From: Chitinophagaceae bacterium
Lineage (GTDB): Bacteria > Bacteroidota > Bacteroidia > Chitinophagales > Chitinophagaceae
DNA length: 64,000 nt
NCBI GenBank assembly: GCA_019638615.1
Contig: JAHBTL010000008.1
Span: forward strand, 1 to 64,000
Reading direction: 5' to 3'
Shown here: positions 7,799-48,764 of the stretch, one piece after another
Numbering within the stretch: position 1 is the stretch's first letter
How the letters are laid out: each line of letters opens with the position of its first letter
Translations under genes and position numbers: made by a program
The notes under the pieces: generated by a model
The model's input: the letters and a program-made list of their open reading frames with translations, nothing else
Database searches by the model: none
What the model was told of the DNA's origin: nothing

Positions 7799-8893
7799 TT
7801 AGCCTTCTTTCTTTTTTTCAAAGTCTGTTGAATGTGCCGGTCCGGGTATGGCCGCCAGGTTTACATCCGAACGGTTTACTTCGCTGACCGAATGAATATC
7901 CATCAGTAATTTCGGTTGCCGTCCATTCATTACCCTGCTGAATGTTTCATTGGGTTTTTTCAGCCCTACGTAATGCCCTTGTGAGATCACCGAATGCCTG
8001 TTCACCTTCACCGGCCCTTCTATCGTCCAGTCTTTAATATCTTTTCTTTCAAAACGGCAGGTATTGCAGATCCAATCTTCCACTTCGCCCCATTGGTCTT
8101 TGCGGGCGGTTACACGCAACACTTCATCGCCCCTCATCCATAAATGAACTTTTCCGCTGCATTTGTCGCAATTGCATGATGCATTTACCGGCTTGGTAAA
8201 CCATACCCGGTTTTTAAAACGGAAGGTCTTATCGGTTAAAGCGCCTACCGGACAAACATCAATCACATTCCCGATAAAATCATTGTCAAGCGCTTTTTCT
8301 ATATAAGTAGCTATCTCAGCGTGATCGCCCCTGTCGAGCACACCATGCACCCTGCTATTGGTGAGCTGTTCTGCAACGAATACACAACGGTAACAAAGTA
8401 TGCACCTCGTCATGTGCAGTTGGATATAGGGGCCGAGGTCGTGCTTTTTGAAAGTTCGTTTAGCAAATTCAAAACGTGTGCCTTCTTTGCCATGCTCATA
8501 GCTCAGATCCTGCAGGTGACATTCACCGGCCTGGTCGCAGATGGGGCAATCCAGGGGATGGTTGATCAACAGGAACTCAACAACACCGGCTCTTGCATCC
8601 TGTACTTTTTCGCTCGTAATATTTTTTACGATCATTCCATCCATCACATTGGTTCTGCAGGAGGCCACCAGTTTGGGCATTGGGCGCGGGTCGGCGGTTG
8701 AACCGGCGGCTACCTCTACCAAACAGGTGCGGCATTTTCCACCACTGCCCTTCAGCTTGCTGTAATAGCACATAGCGGGGGGGGTAACATCACCTCCTAT
8801 CTGCCTCGCGGCATTCAGGATGGTTGTGCCCGGCTCCACCTCAACAGTAATGTTGTCGATCGTAACTTTGAATAATTTTTTTTCTTCAGCCAT
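7799..8893 (-). CDS. nuoG: NADH-quinone oxidoreductase subunit G, short form
   Basis: This iron-sulfur subunit relays electrons from NuoF/NuoE. From the ATG at 8893 it has 364 residues. A [2Fe-2S] domain uses Cys 42, 54, 57 and 79; the N5 site has His 112 with Cys 116, 119 and 125; the N4 site has Cys 164, 167, 170 and 214. A second Cys set (about 240-245 and 276-279) matches the [4Fe-4S] entry domain of molybdopterin enzymes. The large Mo-bis-MGD-like body of the E. coli protein (908 residues) is absent, as in other Bacteroidota. A longer frame from 8920 would take its first nine residues from the neighbouring repeat, so 8893 is preferred. Confidence 0.93.
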   Translation of the reverse strand: MAEEKKLFKVTIDNITVEVEPGTTILNAARQIGGDVTPPAMCYYSKLKGSGGKCRTCLVEVAAGSTADPRPMPKLVASCRTNVMDGMIVKNITSEKVQDARAGVVEFLLINHPLDCPICDQAGECHLQDLSYEHGKEGTRFEFAKRTFKKHDLGPYIQLHMTRCILCYRCVFVAEQLTNSRVHGVLDRGDHAEIATYIEKALDNDFIGNVIDVCPVGALTDKTFRFKNRVWFTKPVNASCNCDKCSGKVHLWMRGDEVLRVTARKDQWGEVEDWICNTCRFERKDIKDWTIEGPVKVNRHSVISQGHYVGLKKPNETFSRVMNGRQPKLLMDIHSVSEVNRSDVNLAAIPGPAHSTDFEKKKEG

Positions 8894-8901
8894 AATGTAT
8901 A

Positions 8902-9533
8902 TTTCACGCGGCGAACACAACGGAGCAGCGACGCAGCGCTTTATAATTTATTTGCTATTCTGTGTATGCCATCTTTCAATAATACCACATTAAAATTGAT
9001 CAGTAAGCCAAGCTTTAAATCCGATAGTTTTAAATAGGTTAATACCTGTTTAAAATGAATATTAGCTAAAGCTTCTATACTTTTAATTTCAACAATTACC
9101 TTATTGTCAATGATCACATCTGACCTAAATCCTACTTCCAACTTTATTTCTTCATGAACAAGCGGAATTGCCTGCTGCCTTGTGAAGAAAACTTCTCTCT
9201 TGCTTAATTCATAGCAAAAAATCTCTTCATATACACTTTCAAAAAGACCCGGCCCATATTTTCTATGAATGCCGAATGCTATATCAAGCGCTAAGGTAGC
9301 AACTTCGTTTTCGATCATAAGCTAGCTTTTTATTTCTCGCAGCGCCTACAACGAAAGTGCGACGCAACGTTTTAATTATTAATGCTCTCGTTTTCCCGCC
9401 GCCCCTCTGTGTCGCCGCGTGAAATTTATTCTTTTCTCGCAGTGCACACAACGAAAATGCGACGCAACGTTTTAATCATTTAATCCTCTATTGCTTCGTT
9501 TTTCCCGCCGCCCCTCTGTGTCGCCGCGTGAAA
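8902..9533. mobile_element. Repeat-bounded GxxExxY cassette inserted between nuoF and nuoG
   Basis: The cassette fills almost the whole nuoF-nuoG gap. Its left end (8902-8913, TTTCACGCGGCG) is an exact inverted copy of 9413-9424 (CGCCGCGTGAAA) and again of 9522-9533. Behind the GxxExxY gene the terminal unit is duplicated in tandem: 9333-9424 and 9433-9533 share the segments TTTCTCGCAG, GCGACGCAACGTTTTAAT and CCCGCCGCCCCTCTGTGTCG, and the inner part of the left end (GCGACGCAGCGCTTTATAAT) is related to the same units. No transposase is encoded. Similar repeats around GxxExxY genes are, to my recollection, seen in other genomes; mobility here is inferred from structure. Confidence 0.65.
8941..9318 (-). 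CDS. GxxExxY protein, PD-(D/E)XK nuclease-like
   Basis: This 125-residue protein belongs to the GxxExxY family. The name-giving motif is present at about residues 24-30 (GLFESVY). A nuclease-like signature follows: Arg65, Asp67, then VEIKS with Glu77 and Lys79, the order expected of a PD-(D/E)XK active site. Enzyme activity in this family is not established, so nuclease function is inferred. The gene is cotranscribed with nuo genes only by position. Its stop codon touches one repeat and its start lies 15 bp from the next, so the gene and repeats appear to form one unit. Confidence 0.9.
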   Translation of the reverse strand: MIENEVATLALDIAFGIHRKYGPGLFESVYEEIFCYELSKREVFFTRQQAIPLVHEEIKLEVGFRSDVIIDNKVIVEIKSIEALANIHFKQVLTYLKLSDLKLGLLINFNVVLLKDGIHRIANKL

Positions 9534-9542
9534 CTCCCCCAC

Positions 9543-10892
9543 CTATGCCACTACTTCCCTCGCATCTGCATAATGCGCCAGTCCATAATTCCTGCGTAAG
9601 CATTCTTCAGGATTCAACACATGCCATTCAAATTCATCGCGGAAATGACGAATGGCTGCCGCCACCGGCCATGCCGCCGCATCACCTAAGGGGCAAATTG
9701 TATTTCCTTCGATCTTACGCTGTATGTCCCACAACAGGTCTATATCGCTCATTTTGCCTTTGCCGGAATCTATATTTTTCAGGATCTTTTCCATCCAGCC
9801 GGTTCCTTCACGGCAGGGACTGCACTGTCCACAGCTTTCATGACGGTAAAACCTAGCCAAAGTATAAGTATTCCTCACCACGCACTGGTCTTCGTCATAC
9901 ACAATAAAACCACCGCTCCCCATCATGCTACCCGTTGCAAAACCGCCATCGCTTAAGCTTTCATAGTTCATATACCTGGTTTCACCTTTGGCAGTTTTCA
10001 GCAAAAGATTAGCCGGTAATATAGGCACGGATGAACCACCGGGTATGCAGGCTTTTAACCTTTTACCATTGGCAATGCCTCCGCAATATTCATCACTGTA
10101 AATAAATTCTTCCACGCTGATGGTCATATCAATTTCATACACACCGGGTTTATTGATATTGCCGCAGGCGGAGATCAGTTTTGTACCGGTTGAGCGGCCT
10201 ACGCCGATCTTCGCGTATTCTTCTCCTCCCAGATTTATAATTGGCACCACTGCAGAAAGGGTTTCTACATTGTTTACCACCGTTGGCCGATCCCATACGC
10301 CTTTTACCGCTGGGAACGGGGGCTTGATACGCGGGTTGCCCCTTTTACCTTCCAGCGATTCGATCAATGCTGTTTCTTCTCCGCAGATATAGGCGCCTGC
10401 GCCACGCTGTACATATATTTCGCAATCAAAGCCGGAGCCTAAAATGTTTTTACCAAGAAAACCATGCGCTTTTGCTTCAACGATCGCCTGTTCCAGTATA
10501 TCGGGTATCCACGCATACTCACCACGGATATAAATGTACGTGGCATTGCTGCCCAGCGCAAAGGAGCTGATGATCAACCCTTCGATCAACAGGTGCGGAA
10601 TAAATTCCATCAGGTAGCGATCCTTAAACGTTCCGGGCTCGCTTTCATCCGCATTACAAACCAAATGGCGGGGAATGCCTTCAGGCTTCGCAATAAAGCT
10701 CCACTTCATACCGGTAGGGAAACCGGCGCCGCCACGTCCGCGCAAGCCGCTTTTTTTCACTTCTTCAACGATCGCTTCTGGCGTCATCTTCAAAGCCTTT
10801 TCCACGGCAGCATACCCACCCTGTTTCCGGTATGTATCGTAATAACGGATACCTTCTACATGTGCATCTTTTAATAATAATTTTACTCTCAT
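9543..10892 (-). CDS. nuoF: NADH-quinone oxidoreductase subunit F, NADH/FMN-binding
   Basis: This is the NADH dehydrogenase subunit that binds NADH, FMN and cluster N3. It has 449 residues. GRGGAGFPTGMKW at about 52-64 is the FMN/NADH Gly-rich loop; GAGAYICGEETALIESLEG at about 165-183 is the second conserved nucleotide-binding stretch; Cys 354, 357, 360 and 400 bind the [4Fe-4S] cluster. The start is an ATG. It follows a non-nuo gene upstream and is followed by the GxxExxY cassette, so both of its neighbours differ from standard nuo order. Confidence 0.97.
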   Translation of the reverse strand: MRVKLLLKDAHVEGIRYYDTYRKQGGYAAVEKALKMTPEAIVEEVKKSGLRGRGGAGFPTGMKWSFIAKPEGIPRHLVCNADESEPGTFKDRYLMEFIPHLLIEGLIISSFALGSNATYIYIRGEYAWIPDILEQAIVEAKAHGFLGKNILGSGFDCEIYVQRGAGAYICGEETALIESLEGKRGNPRIKPPFPAVKGVWDRPTVVNNVETLSAVVPIINLGGEEYAKIGVGRSTGTKLISACGNINKPGVYEIDMTISVEEFIYSDEYCGGIANGKRLKACIPGGSSVPILPANLLLKTAKGETRYMNYESLSDGGFATGSMMGSGGFIVYDEDQCVVRNTYTLARFYRHESCGQCSPCREGTGWMEKILKNIDSGKGKMSDIDLLWDIQRKIEGNTICPLGDAAAWPVAAAIRHFRDEFEWHVLNPEECLRRNYGLAHYADAREVVA

Positions 10893-47359: not shown

Positions 47360-47385
47360 TTGTCGCGATAAAGAAATCGCGACAA
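47360..47385 (+). promoter_or_regulatory. Perfect inverted repeat over the Fic start codon
   Basis: TTGTCGCGAT (47360-47369) and ATCGCGACAA (47376-47385) are exact 10-bp inverted repeats with a 6-nt spacer, and the last A is the first base of the ATG. A protein bound here would block initiation or elongation. The Fic protein's own N-terminal winged-helix-like region is the natural candidate. Confidence 0.8.
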
Positions 47386-48764
47386 TGGCTAAATCAGCAA
47401 ACCCAGCGAAAGATTTACGGGAAATCATCCTTACCCTTTCCAGCGAGGCAAGCGGACTTTCTATTGAAGCTATTGAAGCCAAATTAACAAGCCCTCCTGA
47501 GCGACGGACCCTGCAAAGACGTTTAAAGGAGTTAATAGCCTCAGGCGAACTGTTATCCTCCGGAAAAGGGCGTGCCACCAGATACGAGCTGGCGAAAGTT
47601 GCACCTGTCAGCAATCCAGGCACGGTCAACTCCGATTTACTGCCGCTGTCCGGGCAGGCACGGGAGATCCGGCAATACGTTTCGCAACCCCAACAAAAGC
47701 GCCAGCCGGTAGGCTATAACCGGAGCTTTCTTGACAACTACCAGCCTAACAGCAGCAGTTACCTGACAAAACAGGAAAAAGAGCGGTTAGCCGGACTGGG
47801 AGTAACCGCGCAGATGAACGCCCCGGCAGGCACTTATGCGAAACAAATTTTACAACGGTTATTAATCGATCTGGCCTGGAATTCCAGCAGGCTGGAAGGG
47901 AATACCTATTCCCTGCTCGATACACAACGGCTCCTGTATCAGGGAGTGTCGGCCAACAACAAATCTGCGTCGGAAGCACAAATGATCCTTAATCACAAAG
48001 ACGCTATTGAATTTATTGTCAATAATACTGCCGATATTGGCTTTAACCGGTACACGGTCTTAAGCCTGCACGCACTGTTATCCAATAACCTATTGCCTAA
48101 TCCGGCTGCTTCCGGCAGCCTGAGAACGCACGGCGTGGGAATAGCAGGTTCTGTTTACACGCCTGCCGGTACACCCCAGCTTATTGAAGAAATGTTCGAA
48201 CAGATGCTCGATAAGGCAGCTCAAATCCTGGATCCGTTTGAGCAAGCCTTTTTTATCATGGTACAGCTTCCTTACCTGCAACCCTTTGATGACGTTAATA
48301 AGCGGGTATCCCGTTTAGCGGCCAATATTCCTTTGAACAAAAAAAATCTTGCTCCACTGTCGTTCGTGGAGGTGCCAGATACACTTTACATAGACGGATT
48401 GCTTGGAGTATATGAATTGAACCGGGTTGAATTACTAAAGGACGTGTTTCTCTGGGCCTACGACCGCTCTGCCAAACAATATGCCGTCCAACGTCAGTCG
48501 TTGGGGGAACCCGACCCTTTCCGGATGCAATATCGCGATCTGATCCGTTCTCTCATCTCGGAGATCATTACCGCACCGAATTCAAAAGCGGAAGCGATCC
48601 CTATGATTCAGGCGAGGGCTCTCAGGCTGCCGGAAAGCGACCGGGAAAAATTTGTGCAAACCGTAGAAAATGAACTGGTCAGTTTACACAACGGCAATTT
48701 CGCGCGTTATTTCGTAACACCATCCCAGTTTAAAAACTGGCAGAAAATCTGGAATACTATCTGA
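47385..48764 (+). CDS. Fic-family protein with N-terminal DNA-binding-like domain
   Basis: A 459-residue protein. Residues about 8-70 look like a winged helix-turn-helix (LSIEAIEAKL, then RRTLQRRLKELIASG). The Fic core follows. The inhibitory-helix motif is SSRLEGN at 167-173. The catalytic loop reads QPFDDVNKR at 299-307 where canonical Fic proteins have HPFxxGNGR, so the general-base His is a Gln and both Gly positions differ. AMPylation of a target is therefore doubtful, and a regulator or toxin-like derivative is possible. Base composition is close to the surrounding genome. It stands alone downstream of its palindromes. Confidence 0.88.
   Translation: MAKSANPAKDLREIILTLSSEASGLSIEAIEAKLTSPPERRTLQRRLKELIASGELLSSGKGRATRYELAKVAPVSNPGTVNSDLLPLSGQAREIRQYVSQPQQKRQPVGYNRSFLDNYQPNSSSYLTKQEKERLAGLGVTAQMNAPAGTYAKQILQRLLIDLAWNSSRLEGNTYSLLDTQRLLYQGVSANNKSASEAQMILNHKDAIEFIVNNTADIGFNRYTVLSLHALLSNNLLPNPAASGSLRTHGVGIAGSVYTPAGTPQLIEEMFEQMLDKAAQILDPFEQAFFIMVQLPYLQPFDDVNKRVSRLAANIPLNKKNLAPLSFVEVPDTLYIDGLLGVYELNRVELLKDVFLWAYDRSAKQYAVQRQSLGEPDPFRMQYRDLIRSLISEIITAPNSKAEAIPMIQARALRLPESDREKFVQTVENELVSLHNGNFARYFVTPSQFKNWQKIWNTI

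Follow-up and report, generated by a model that had tools for sequence, protein, structure and literature searches.

A GxxExxY gene bracketed by inverted heptamer arrays in the nuoF-nuoG gap: a candidate nuclease-palindrome element of operon gaps

Introduction

How does a small gene with inverted repeats at its ends come to lie inside the complex I operon, and do the gene and the repeats belong together? The question was raised by one locus in a 64-kb stretch of Chitinophagaceae DNA, the whole of which is called the window here. The original prediction had described a compact cassette between nuoF and nuoG that lacks a transposase, encodes a protein with a nuclease-like D...ExK signature and may represent a partnership between a repeat and a nuclease. 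We know of no established role for GxxExxY genes, the family to which the gene was assigned. Among the matches listed in the literature searched, with subscription papers and preprints outside its scope, no description of GxxExxY linked to repeats was found; in the passages found, 'GxxExxY' was a passing gene name and no repeat partner was reported for the family. The sole match to the array strings was a muscle-enhancer paper.

Results

A GxxExxY gene, an arm and two ORF-less units occupy the nuoF-nuoG gap

The nuoF-nuoG gap in the window is 649 nt long and contains two ORF-less units, the gene of 125 aa and a final arm, arranged with their neighbours as follows.

7799..8893, minus strand: nuoG (N-terminal, short form), downstream operon neighbour, intact; TIGR01973 match to the N-terminal part, below the full-length cut-off
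8902..8939, no strand assigned: arm downstream of the GxxExxY gene, a degenerate heptamer array with TTTCACGCGGCG outermost, 8 nt from the nuoG start
8941..9318, minus strand: GxxExxY protein gene, 125 aa, PD-(D/E)XK family; TIGR04256 and PF13366 profile matches
9333..9424, no strand assigned: ORF-less unit adjoining the gene, 92 nt, bounded on both sides by end motifs that face inward, TTTCTCGCAGCG and inverted TTTCACGCGGCG
9433..9533, no strand assigned: second ORF-less unit, 101 nt, a direct repeat of the first; outer edge 9 nt past the nuoF stop
9543..10892, minus strand: nuoF, upstream operon neighbour, intact; TIGR01959 match

The gene, its two intact neighbours and the inverted TTTCACGCGGCG ends were all found where the original prediction had placed them, with TTTCACGCGGCG at 8902-8913 (+) and inverted at 9413-9424 and 9522-9533, and no further copy with at most one mismatch was present elsewhere in the 64-kb window (shuffles mean 0.32). 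The predicted perfect 12-bp terminal inverted repeats are present, but comparison with relatives showed that they are only the outer tip of longer arms of degenerate heptamers, and their role as functional ends was not supported. Likewise, a tandem repeat does exist, but the supposed duplication of a right terminal unit is in fact the two ORF-less units, each with inward motifs and 89-90% identical over two aligned parts. No transposase was found in the cassette, where TIGR04256 and PF13366 were the sole profile matches, and this agrees with the compact, transposase-free cassette first described. The cassette also had no Rfam match up to E 0.1.

Within the window, the repeat by itself is weak evidence, suggestive and not decisive. 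The inverted repeat inside each ORF-less unit was equalled in score by 32 and 46 of 500 random window stretches, and 13-bp perfect inverted pairs 300-700 nt apart occurred at three places, the other two inside ORFs (20 simulations, mean 0.55). Comparative data decide the matter: they ruled out a chance repeat as the explanation, though the 12-bp repeat alone would not exclude chance. The window inverted repeats at 17.2 kb and 48.1 kb were dropped, both lying inside ORFs. The gene at 47385-48764, presumably Fic-like, contains a 16-bp perfect inverted repeat with its halves about 500 nt apart, probably by chance.

The encoded protein is a GxxExxY family member with a conserved D...ExK motif

The 125-aa protein matched TIGR04256 with E=3.5e-36 (124.1 bits against a curated cut-off of 35, model positions 7-115 of 116) and PF13366 (PDDEXK_3) with E=7.7e-35, and by these profiles it is a plain member of the GxxExxY family. 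In alignment A2 of 35 relatives, which were chosen for the absence of stops, G22, E27, Y30, D67, E77, K79 and Y95 were invariant and Q91 nearly so. The predicted signature was borne out, as D67, E77 and K79 form the D...ExK catalytic motif of the PD-(D/E)XK nuclease superfamily. The predicted structure was confident (pLDDT 95.8). Its top Foldseek rows were LHK-Exo, SSO0001 and lambda exonuclease, all weak (best E 0.014), which we take to share the restriction-endonuclease-like fold, SSO0001 presumably being a Cas4 protein; a homing endonuclease and Hjc followed in lower rows, also with weak E-values.

Estimates of dN/dS were 0.03-0.21 in the six pairs where they could be made, namely 0.03 in three Flavobacterium-type pairs, whose synonymous sites were almost saturated, and 0.10-0.21 in three pairs from the genus of the window; a further two pairs of that genus were saturated, and three pairs of unequal length were unusable. 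By these estimates the protein is under purifying selection, and it is very probably made and of consequence, at least in the lineages that gave estimates. Such selection argues against a dying passenger in the window's lineage.

GxxExxY genes are common in this part of the tree: the search of 58 genomes, which took in that of the window, found them in 41. With this protein as the sole query at E 1e-5, 4 of 72,556 plasmids and 0 of 50,697 phages carried a match, and PADLOC gave no match at E up to 0.01. Two additional GxxExxY genes are present in the genome of the window. One (L224, G000:C12:253812-254147) lies between trpG and trpD of the trp operon, and the other follows a 2'-5' RNA ligase-like gene and precedes a radical SAM gene. 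On both sides, L224 is flanked by TGGGATn-like repeats that fit neither of the end types described below.

Inverted heptamer arrays accompany GxxExxY genes in several phyla

We scanned a contig collection and analysed the best 80 of 570 confirmed GxxExxY loci, a set in which nearer relatives are over-represented. The set contains 79 distinct loci; L075 duplicates L006 and was omitted from the tree. Bacteroidota account for 57 of the 79, and the remainder belong to Cyanobacteriota, Planctomycetota, Acidobacteriota, Ignavibacteriota and further groups. The labels of some MAGs are open to doubt: L100, labelled 'Rhizobium', groups with Flavobacterium, and L134 is labelled 'Carnobacterium'.

In a motif-free test of the left flank against the reverse complement of the right, 38 of 78 loci exceeded the 99th percentile of 1560 control intervals, two of the 80 loci having too little flank. 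The array unit is a heptamer near CRCAAAG, about 25-fold enriched beside the gene and mainly in inverted orientation. Within 100 nt of the gene its density was 15.4 per kb forward on the left and 17.4 per kb reverse on the right, against 4.3 and 6.7 in the opposite orientation and a background of 0.66 and 0.65 per kb beyond 2 kb. Inverted arrays on both sides were found at 25 of 77 loci of the same best 80 and in 0 of 3850 control intervals; 63 of the 77 had an array on at least one side, a figure that stands beside a control of both-sided arrays only. Two end types were distinguished, A (consensus TTTCnCGCAAAGnCGCAAAG, heptamer spacing mostly 8) and B (consensus TTAACCGCAAAGnnCnCAAAG, spacing mostly 9, also 11 and 12). 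A motif of type A or B lay within 400 nt of the gene at 75 of the 80 best loci, with about 24% expected by chance from the far density, the motifs and end types having been defined after the loci were viewed. The predicted partnership of repeat and nuclease thus extends across phyla at the level of sequence, as seen in the heptamer enrichment, the end typing and these 75 loci.

A Y1/RAYT transposase was tested as the partner of the arrays and was not supported. At 30 Y1-transposase loci of ten relatives the heptamer was at background (0.48 per kb, against 5.03 at GxxExxY loci), and an A or B motif was present at 6 of the 30.

Arrays of another kind were observed at a second cargo family. Four-helix-bundle (TIGR02436) genes of relatives (L185-L214) are also bracketed by inverted period-7 arrays, whose heptamers vary between genomes; 18 of 28 such loci were above the control 99th percentile for an inverted flank match, and the arrays matched themselves best at lag 7 (0.60 vs 0.37). 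A GxxExxY gene with array ends (L219, G011:C597) apparently lies, as judged by eye, between type III restriction mod and res genes.

End type tracks the protein tree, and left and right ends match

Typing by script assigned 54 of 111 loci to A and 39 to B and left 18 untyped, by an A/B rule that was framed after the tree had also been viewed. On the protein tree the end type changes 3 times, against a mean of 30 and a minimum of 22 in 300 shuffles of the labels; because near relatives share protein and flank by descent and loci at a common site do not count as independent, this comparison overstates the effect and is not a probability. Host phylum does not account for end type, since A and B are each represented in Bacteroidota, Cyanobacteriota, Planctomycetota and Ignavibacteriota. 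On this evidence, end type is a property that tracks the protein tree and not the host phylum.

The two ends of one locus also resemble each other more than ends of the same type taken from different loci, with mean matches of 20.7 vs 13.8 for A and 21.2 vs 15.8 for B. The own partner end ranked in the top 5% of same-type ends at only 24 of 49 A loci and 9 of 36 B loci. In 11 nuoFG copies (without G001 and L105), the outermost 12-mers agreed at 11.45 of 12 positions against 9.84 when permuted, and 0 of 5000 permutations reached the observed value.

Most copies lie between co-directional genes, directly after a stop codon

Neighbours were counted at 57 loci where they lay close, after one locus whose neighbours were distant and those shorter than 8 kb had been set aside. 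Both neighbours were co-directional with the gene at 45, only the upstream one at 9, only the downstream one at 2 and neither at 1. The upstream gene was co-directional in 54 of 57 compared with 184 of 253 control triplets (Fisher p 1.9e-4, a value that overstates, since shared sites were not discounted and loci at one site are not independent). The dependence on cotranscription that had been suggested is therefore supported as a tendency. At typed loci of at least 5 kb, and with distances of 400 nt or more dropped, the median distance from the upstream stop codon to the outermost left end was 6 nt (n=41), and that from the right end to the next start was 15 nt (n=36).

The flank comparison covered the 45 highest-ranking of 265 protein pairs, in some of which one flank was too short. 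Proteins 78-84% identical were found at unrelated sites (L125/L132, L118/L147, L077/L078 and L084/L085), and seven Flavobacterium-like loci share one site. These comparisons indicate that both movement and long inheritance occur among GxxExxY copies. Among the loci compared there was no clean empty/filled pair at strain level and no closely related empty site, and by eye no target-site duplication was evident in the nuoFG junctions and dispersed copies read.

The nuoF-nuoG gap is variably filled in relatives

We examined nuoF-nuoG junctions in 39 of the 58 genomes searched. An intact cassette was present at 10 (G000, G001 at a contig end, G004, G005, G008, G012, G020, G021, G022 and G032), and in two (G003, G006) a decayed gene was still bracketed by TTTCACGCAAAG and CTTTGCGTGAAA. 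Three (G010, G011, G033) kept short remnants that were read by eye as scars. A four-helix-bundle gene with other repeat ends occupied the gap in two, confirmed in G014 (L042) and decayed, by eye, in G018 (L046); seven had other genes there (G002, G007, G016, G023, G024, G030, G052); and in 15 the gap was at most 100 nt without a cassette. Gaps in relatives are thus empty, scarred, pseudogenised or otherwise filled, and repeats do occur elsewhere in related genomes; the arrangement that would have spoken for a conserved operon part, universal, with no empty sites and with repeats nowhere else, did not occur. A wider contig scan added three nuoFG cassettes, in Lacibacter luteus (L077), Niabella aurantiaca (L079) and a Sphingobacteriales MAG (L105). 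Within the complex I operon, the nuoF-nuoG gap looks like a general hotspot of insertion.

Two of the other fillings were noted in their own right. The gap of G002 (L035) holds an AAA ATPase gene and a small second gene, the ATPase resembling AbiL/AbiLi/AriA defence proteins, and that of G016 (L044) holds an ATPase and small-gene pair that looks similar by eye.

In the tree of 111 GxxExxY proteins, 12 of 13 nuoFG copies fell in one clade of 16 rows (support 88/79), together with four copies from other sites. Because these 12 share one protein clade, most nuoFG copies probably descend from one old insertion, and the recent insertion originally supposed for the window's copy is not upheld. L105 stood outside this clade, beside L098 (support 95/84), and by eye its array is of the other kind. 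Since both its protein and its array differ from those of the other nuoFG copies, the gap was probably filled at least twice. The polarity of the L105 array is also reversed, with the AACC tips toward the gene and not outward, as if the element were circularly permuted or came from a tandem array. Identities between G000 and G008 were 93% for nuoG and 66% for the cassette protein, and between G000 and G001 81% and 78%. These identities are suggestive, host and cassette disagreeing for G008, but incongruence between nuoG and the cassette protein was set aside, since it did not reach significance in the AU test (p 0.097) or in its reverse on nuoG (0.367).

ORF-less copies are dispersed in some genomes

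The pattern TTTCACGCAAAGNNGC occurred 17 times in G008, 9 in G009, 45 in G014, 22 in G020 and 62 in G045, and was absent from five other genomes, among them that of the window; the reversed pattern, used as a control, matched in none of the ten and had no match in the end-type pattern search either. Relatives thus carry the repeats elsewhere. In the window's own genome, blastn with 207 bases of the repeat unit matched this locus only, and the end-type pattern search matched the nuoFG locus only. ACGCAAAGNCGCAAAG was present in only 12 of 58 genomes (reversed-pattern control: one match in each of five genomes), against 41 of 58 with a GxxExxY gene. Despite its 45 end motifs, G014 gave no TIGR04256/GxxExxY match in the genome search.

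Thirty motif loci, of 155 matches, were read. GxxExxY was not matched within about 1.5 kb at 28 of them, and 25 had no clear inverted partner within 700 nt, so that most copies are single arms. Full palindromes were also present outside nuoFG in G005, G008 and G020, as end motifs that face each other at distances of 62-251 nt; the type-pattern search gave four such pairs, and five stood among the matches listed for TTTCACGCAAAGNNGC. One G020 pair (2619058-2619324) encloses a pair of the other sequence. A tandem array around a full gene in G010 includes five mini-ORFs of 13 codons (MTENEISYIINGL and variants) in which the first and last codons of that gene are preserved; judged by these codons, they are internal-deletion derivatives of it.

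Nesting of arrays was observed as well. CGCAAAG-type arrays are nested in or interleaved with period-7 arrays of TTCAAAAGTC and AGGTATCAGG types at L163, L177 and L181 in G014 and at L158, L169 and L183 in G009, which suggests repeated insertion into the same gene gaps. At L245 an array is nested in or adjoins an array of another type.

Discussion

The recurrence of the gene and its repeats between co-transcribed genes in several phyla suggests, on comparative grounds, an undescribed small element in which nuclease and repeats belong together. The element would consist of one PD-(D/E)XK GxxExxY gene with inverted heptamer arrays at both ends, accompanied in some genomes by ORF-less derivatives. 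Linkage and inversion are seen in the heptamer densities, the co-variation of end and protein in the typed tree, and the matching of ends within loci. Most likely, the nuclease recognises the cognate type of end array, probably as hairpin or cruciform DNA, and this recognition would have kept gene and ends together or spread them. We infer that the protein binds or cuts the ends and thereby moves the element, and that read-through expresses it. The element would settle in short gaps of co-directional genes, directly past the upstream stop codon, a context observed at most loci; because it sits right after that stop, both neighbours would stay intact and the GxxExxY gene would be read from the host operon, and operon gaps may be favoured for this. 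The nuoF-nuoG copy of the window's lineage would then be old and mostly inherited, its protein still selected, with the turnover seen at the site reflecting loss or decay in some relatives.

Several known arrangements resemble this one. MITEs of classical insertion sequences are short inverted-repeat derivatives, some made by internal deletion and some nested. The short inverted-repeat derivatives described here are similar, some being internal deletions of a longer copy and some nested, but the long copy has no transposase and no target duplication was seen. As in REPIN/RAYT and REPtron systems, in the available passages on them (PMC3116915, PMC8266576), small palindromic repeats are dispersed intergenically as single units or inverted doublets and are linked to one small nuclease gene whose type matches the repeat type; tandem clusters occur and a classical transposase is lacking. 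In these passages TnpA-REP/RAYT is proposed to keep and spread REP palindromes, which is the role we envisage for the GxxExxY nuclease. So far as those passages go, the differences are that the enzyme here is of the PD-(D/E)XK family and not HUH/Y1 (TnpA-REP), that the arrays are heptamers spaced mostly 8 or 9 nt and bracket the gene itself, and that most copies follow directly on the stop codon of a co-directional gene. REPIN/RAYT is defined by an HUH enzyme, which is not the partner here; we therefore did not file the element there and judge it to be a new version of the arrangement of palindrome and cognate nuclease. The intervening sequences (IVS) of 23S rRNA with an S23/four-helix-bundle ORF, in the part of the source available (PMC4990558), are likewise small ORF-bearing elements in a transcribed unit, selfish in appearance and subject to reductive loss. 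They differ in lying in rRNA and not between protein genes such as nuoF and nuoG, and in encoding a four-helix bundle and not a nuclease-family protein; the Coxiella IVS ORF is described there as undergoing reductive evolution and probably not made (PMC4990558), whereas the protein here is under purifying selection.

The main rival is a role of the arms in RNA. In analogy to the 23S rRNA intervening sequences, the arms would pair in the operon mRNA and so enclose the gene in a stem, which RNase III would trim, making the insertion harmless; selection would act on pairing, and the nuclease would be cargo. The outer arms do form a closing stem in the predicted gap RNA (MFE -192.4 kcal/mol, a figure given without a shuffle control), the two ends covary from species to species, copies share the direction of the upstream gene, and four-helix-bundle genes of the IVS type, one of which fills this gap in G014, carry comparable array ends. 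Excision of an ORF-bearing element by RNase III has a precedent in the Coxiella IVS, as far as the source passage goes (PMC4990558). Pairing alone, however, explains neither why end type follows the protein tree nor the strong purifying selection on the protein, and the lack of an Rfam match also speaks against it; we consider this explanation unlikely. A domesticated host or defence gene with its own regulatory repeats, the arrays being operator or terminator-like sites and mobility long ended, would account for the purifying selection and for inheritance at orthologous sites in Flavobacterium and mostly at nuoFG, and an AbiL/AriA-like ATPase gene with a small partner does sit in the same gap of G002. 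The long vertical retention exemplified by seven Flavobacterium-like loci at a single site is equally what a useful host gene would show. Similar proteins at unrelated sites, dispersed ORF-less arrays and decay to remnants look element-like all the same, and PADLOC gave the protein no defence match in the range searched, so that a domesticated gene has, in our estimate, a distinctly small chance of being the whole explanation.

Alternatively, replication slippage or a different cellular enzyme, such as a Y1/RAYT transposase, might have spread the arrays, and GxxExxY would be a passenger that chanced to be caught between them. Y1_Tnp matches were present in 10 of 10 genomes searched, G014 has arrays without GxxExxY, and the tandem units suggest slippage or recombination. 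Y1 loci nevertheless stand at heptamer background, Y1 matches also occur in G013 and G026, both without TTTCACGCAAAGNNGC, and the co-variation of end and protein is left unexplained; we regard this origin as very improbable. The sequence evidence is not uniform for the preferred reading either, since the arrays of G014 without GxxExxY, and ACGCAAAGNCGCAAAG in 12 genomes as compared with GxxExxY in 41 of 58, speak against a simple partnership. Overall, we would give an even chance to the reading of the window locus as one copy of a widespread element, a counterpart of REPIN/RAYT in which palindromes go with a PD-(D/E)XK nuclease, marked by cognate recognition and settling in operon gaps and represented here by an old inherited copy. 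A wider proposal is more tentative, and we think it possible but rather doubtful: a new class of mobile elements, specialised for life between co-transcribed genes, in which a cognate PD-(D/E)XK (GxxExxY) nuclease cuts heptamer-array palindromes and spreads them without a transposase, with a parallel class that pairs period-7 arrays with four-helix-bundle proteins.

The cognate arrays offer a testable substrate for the GxxExxY family, and the family offers a testable enzyme for the arrays. If the nuclease acts on the arrays, the partnership would represent the REP/RAYT arrangement achieved a second time, by a different chemistry; it would explain a class of repeats in the gene gaps of several phyla, and would show how an element lives in the complex I operon without breaking it.
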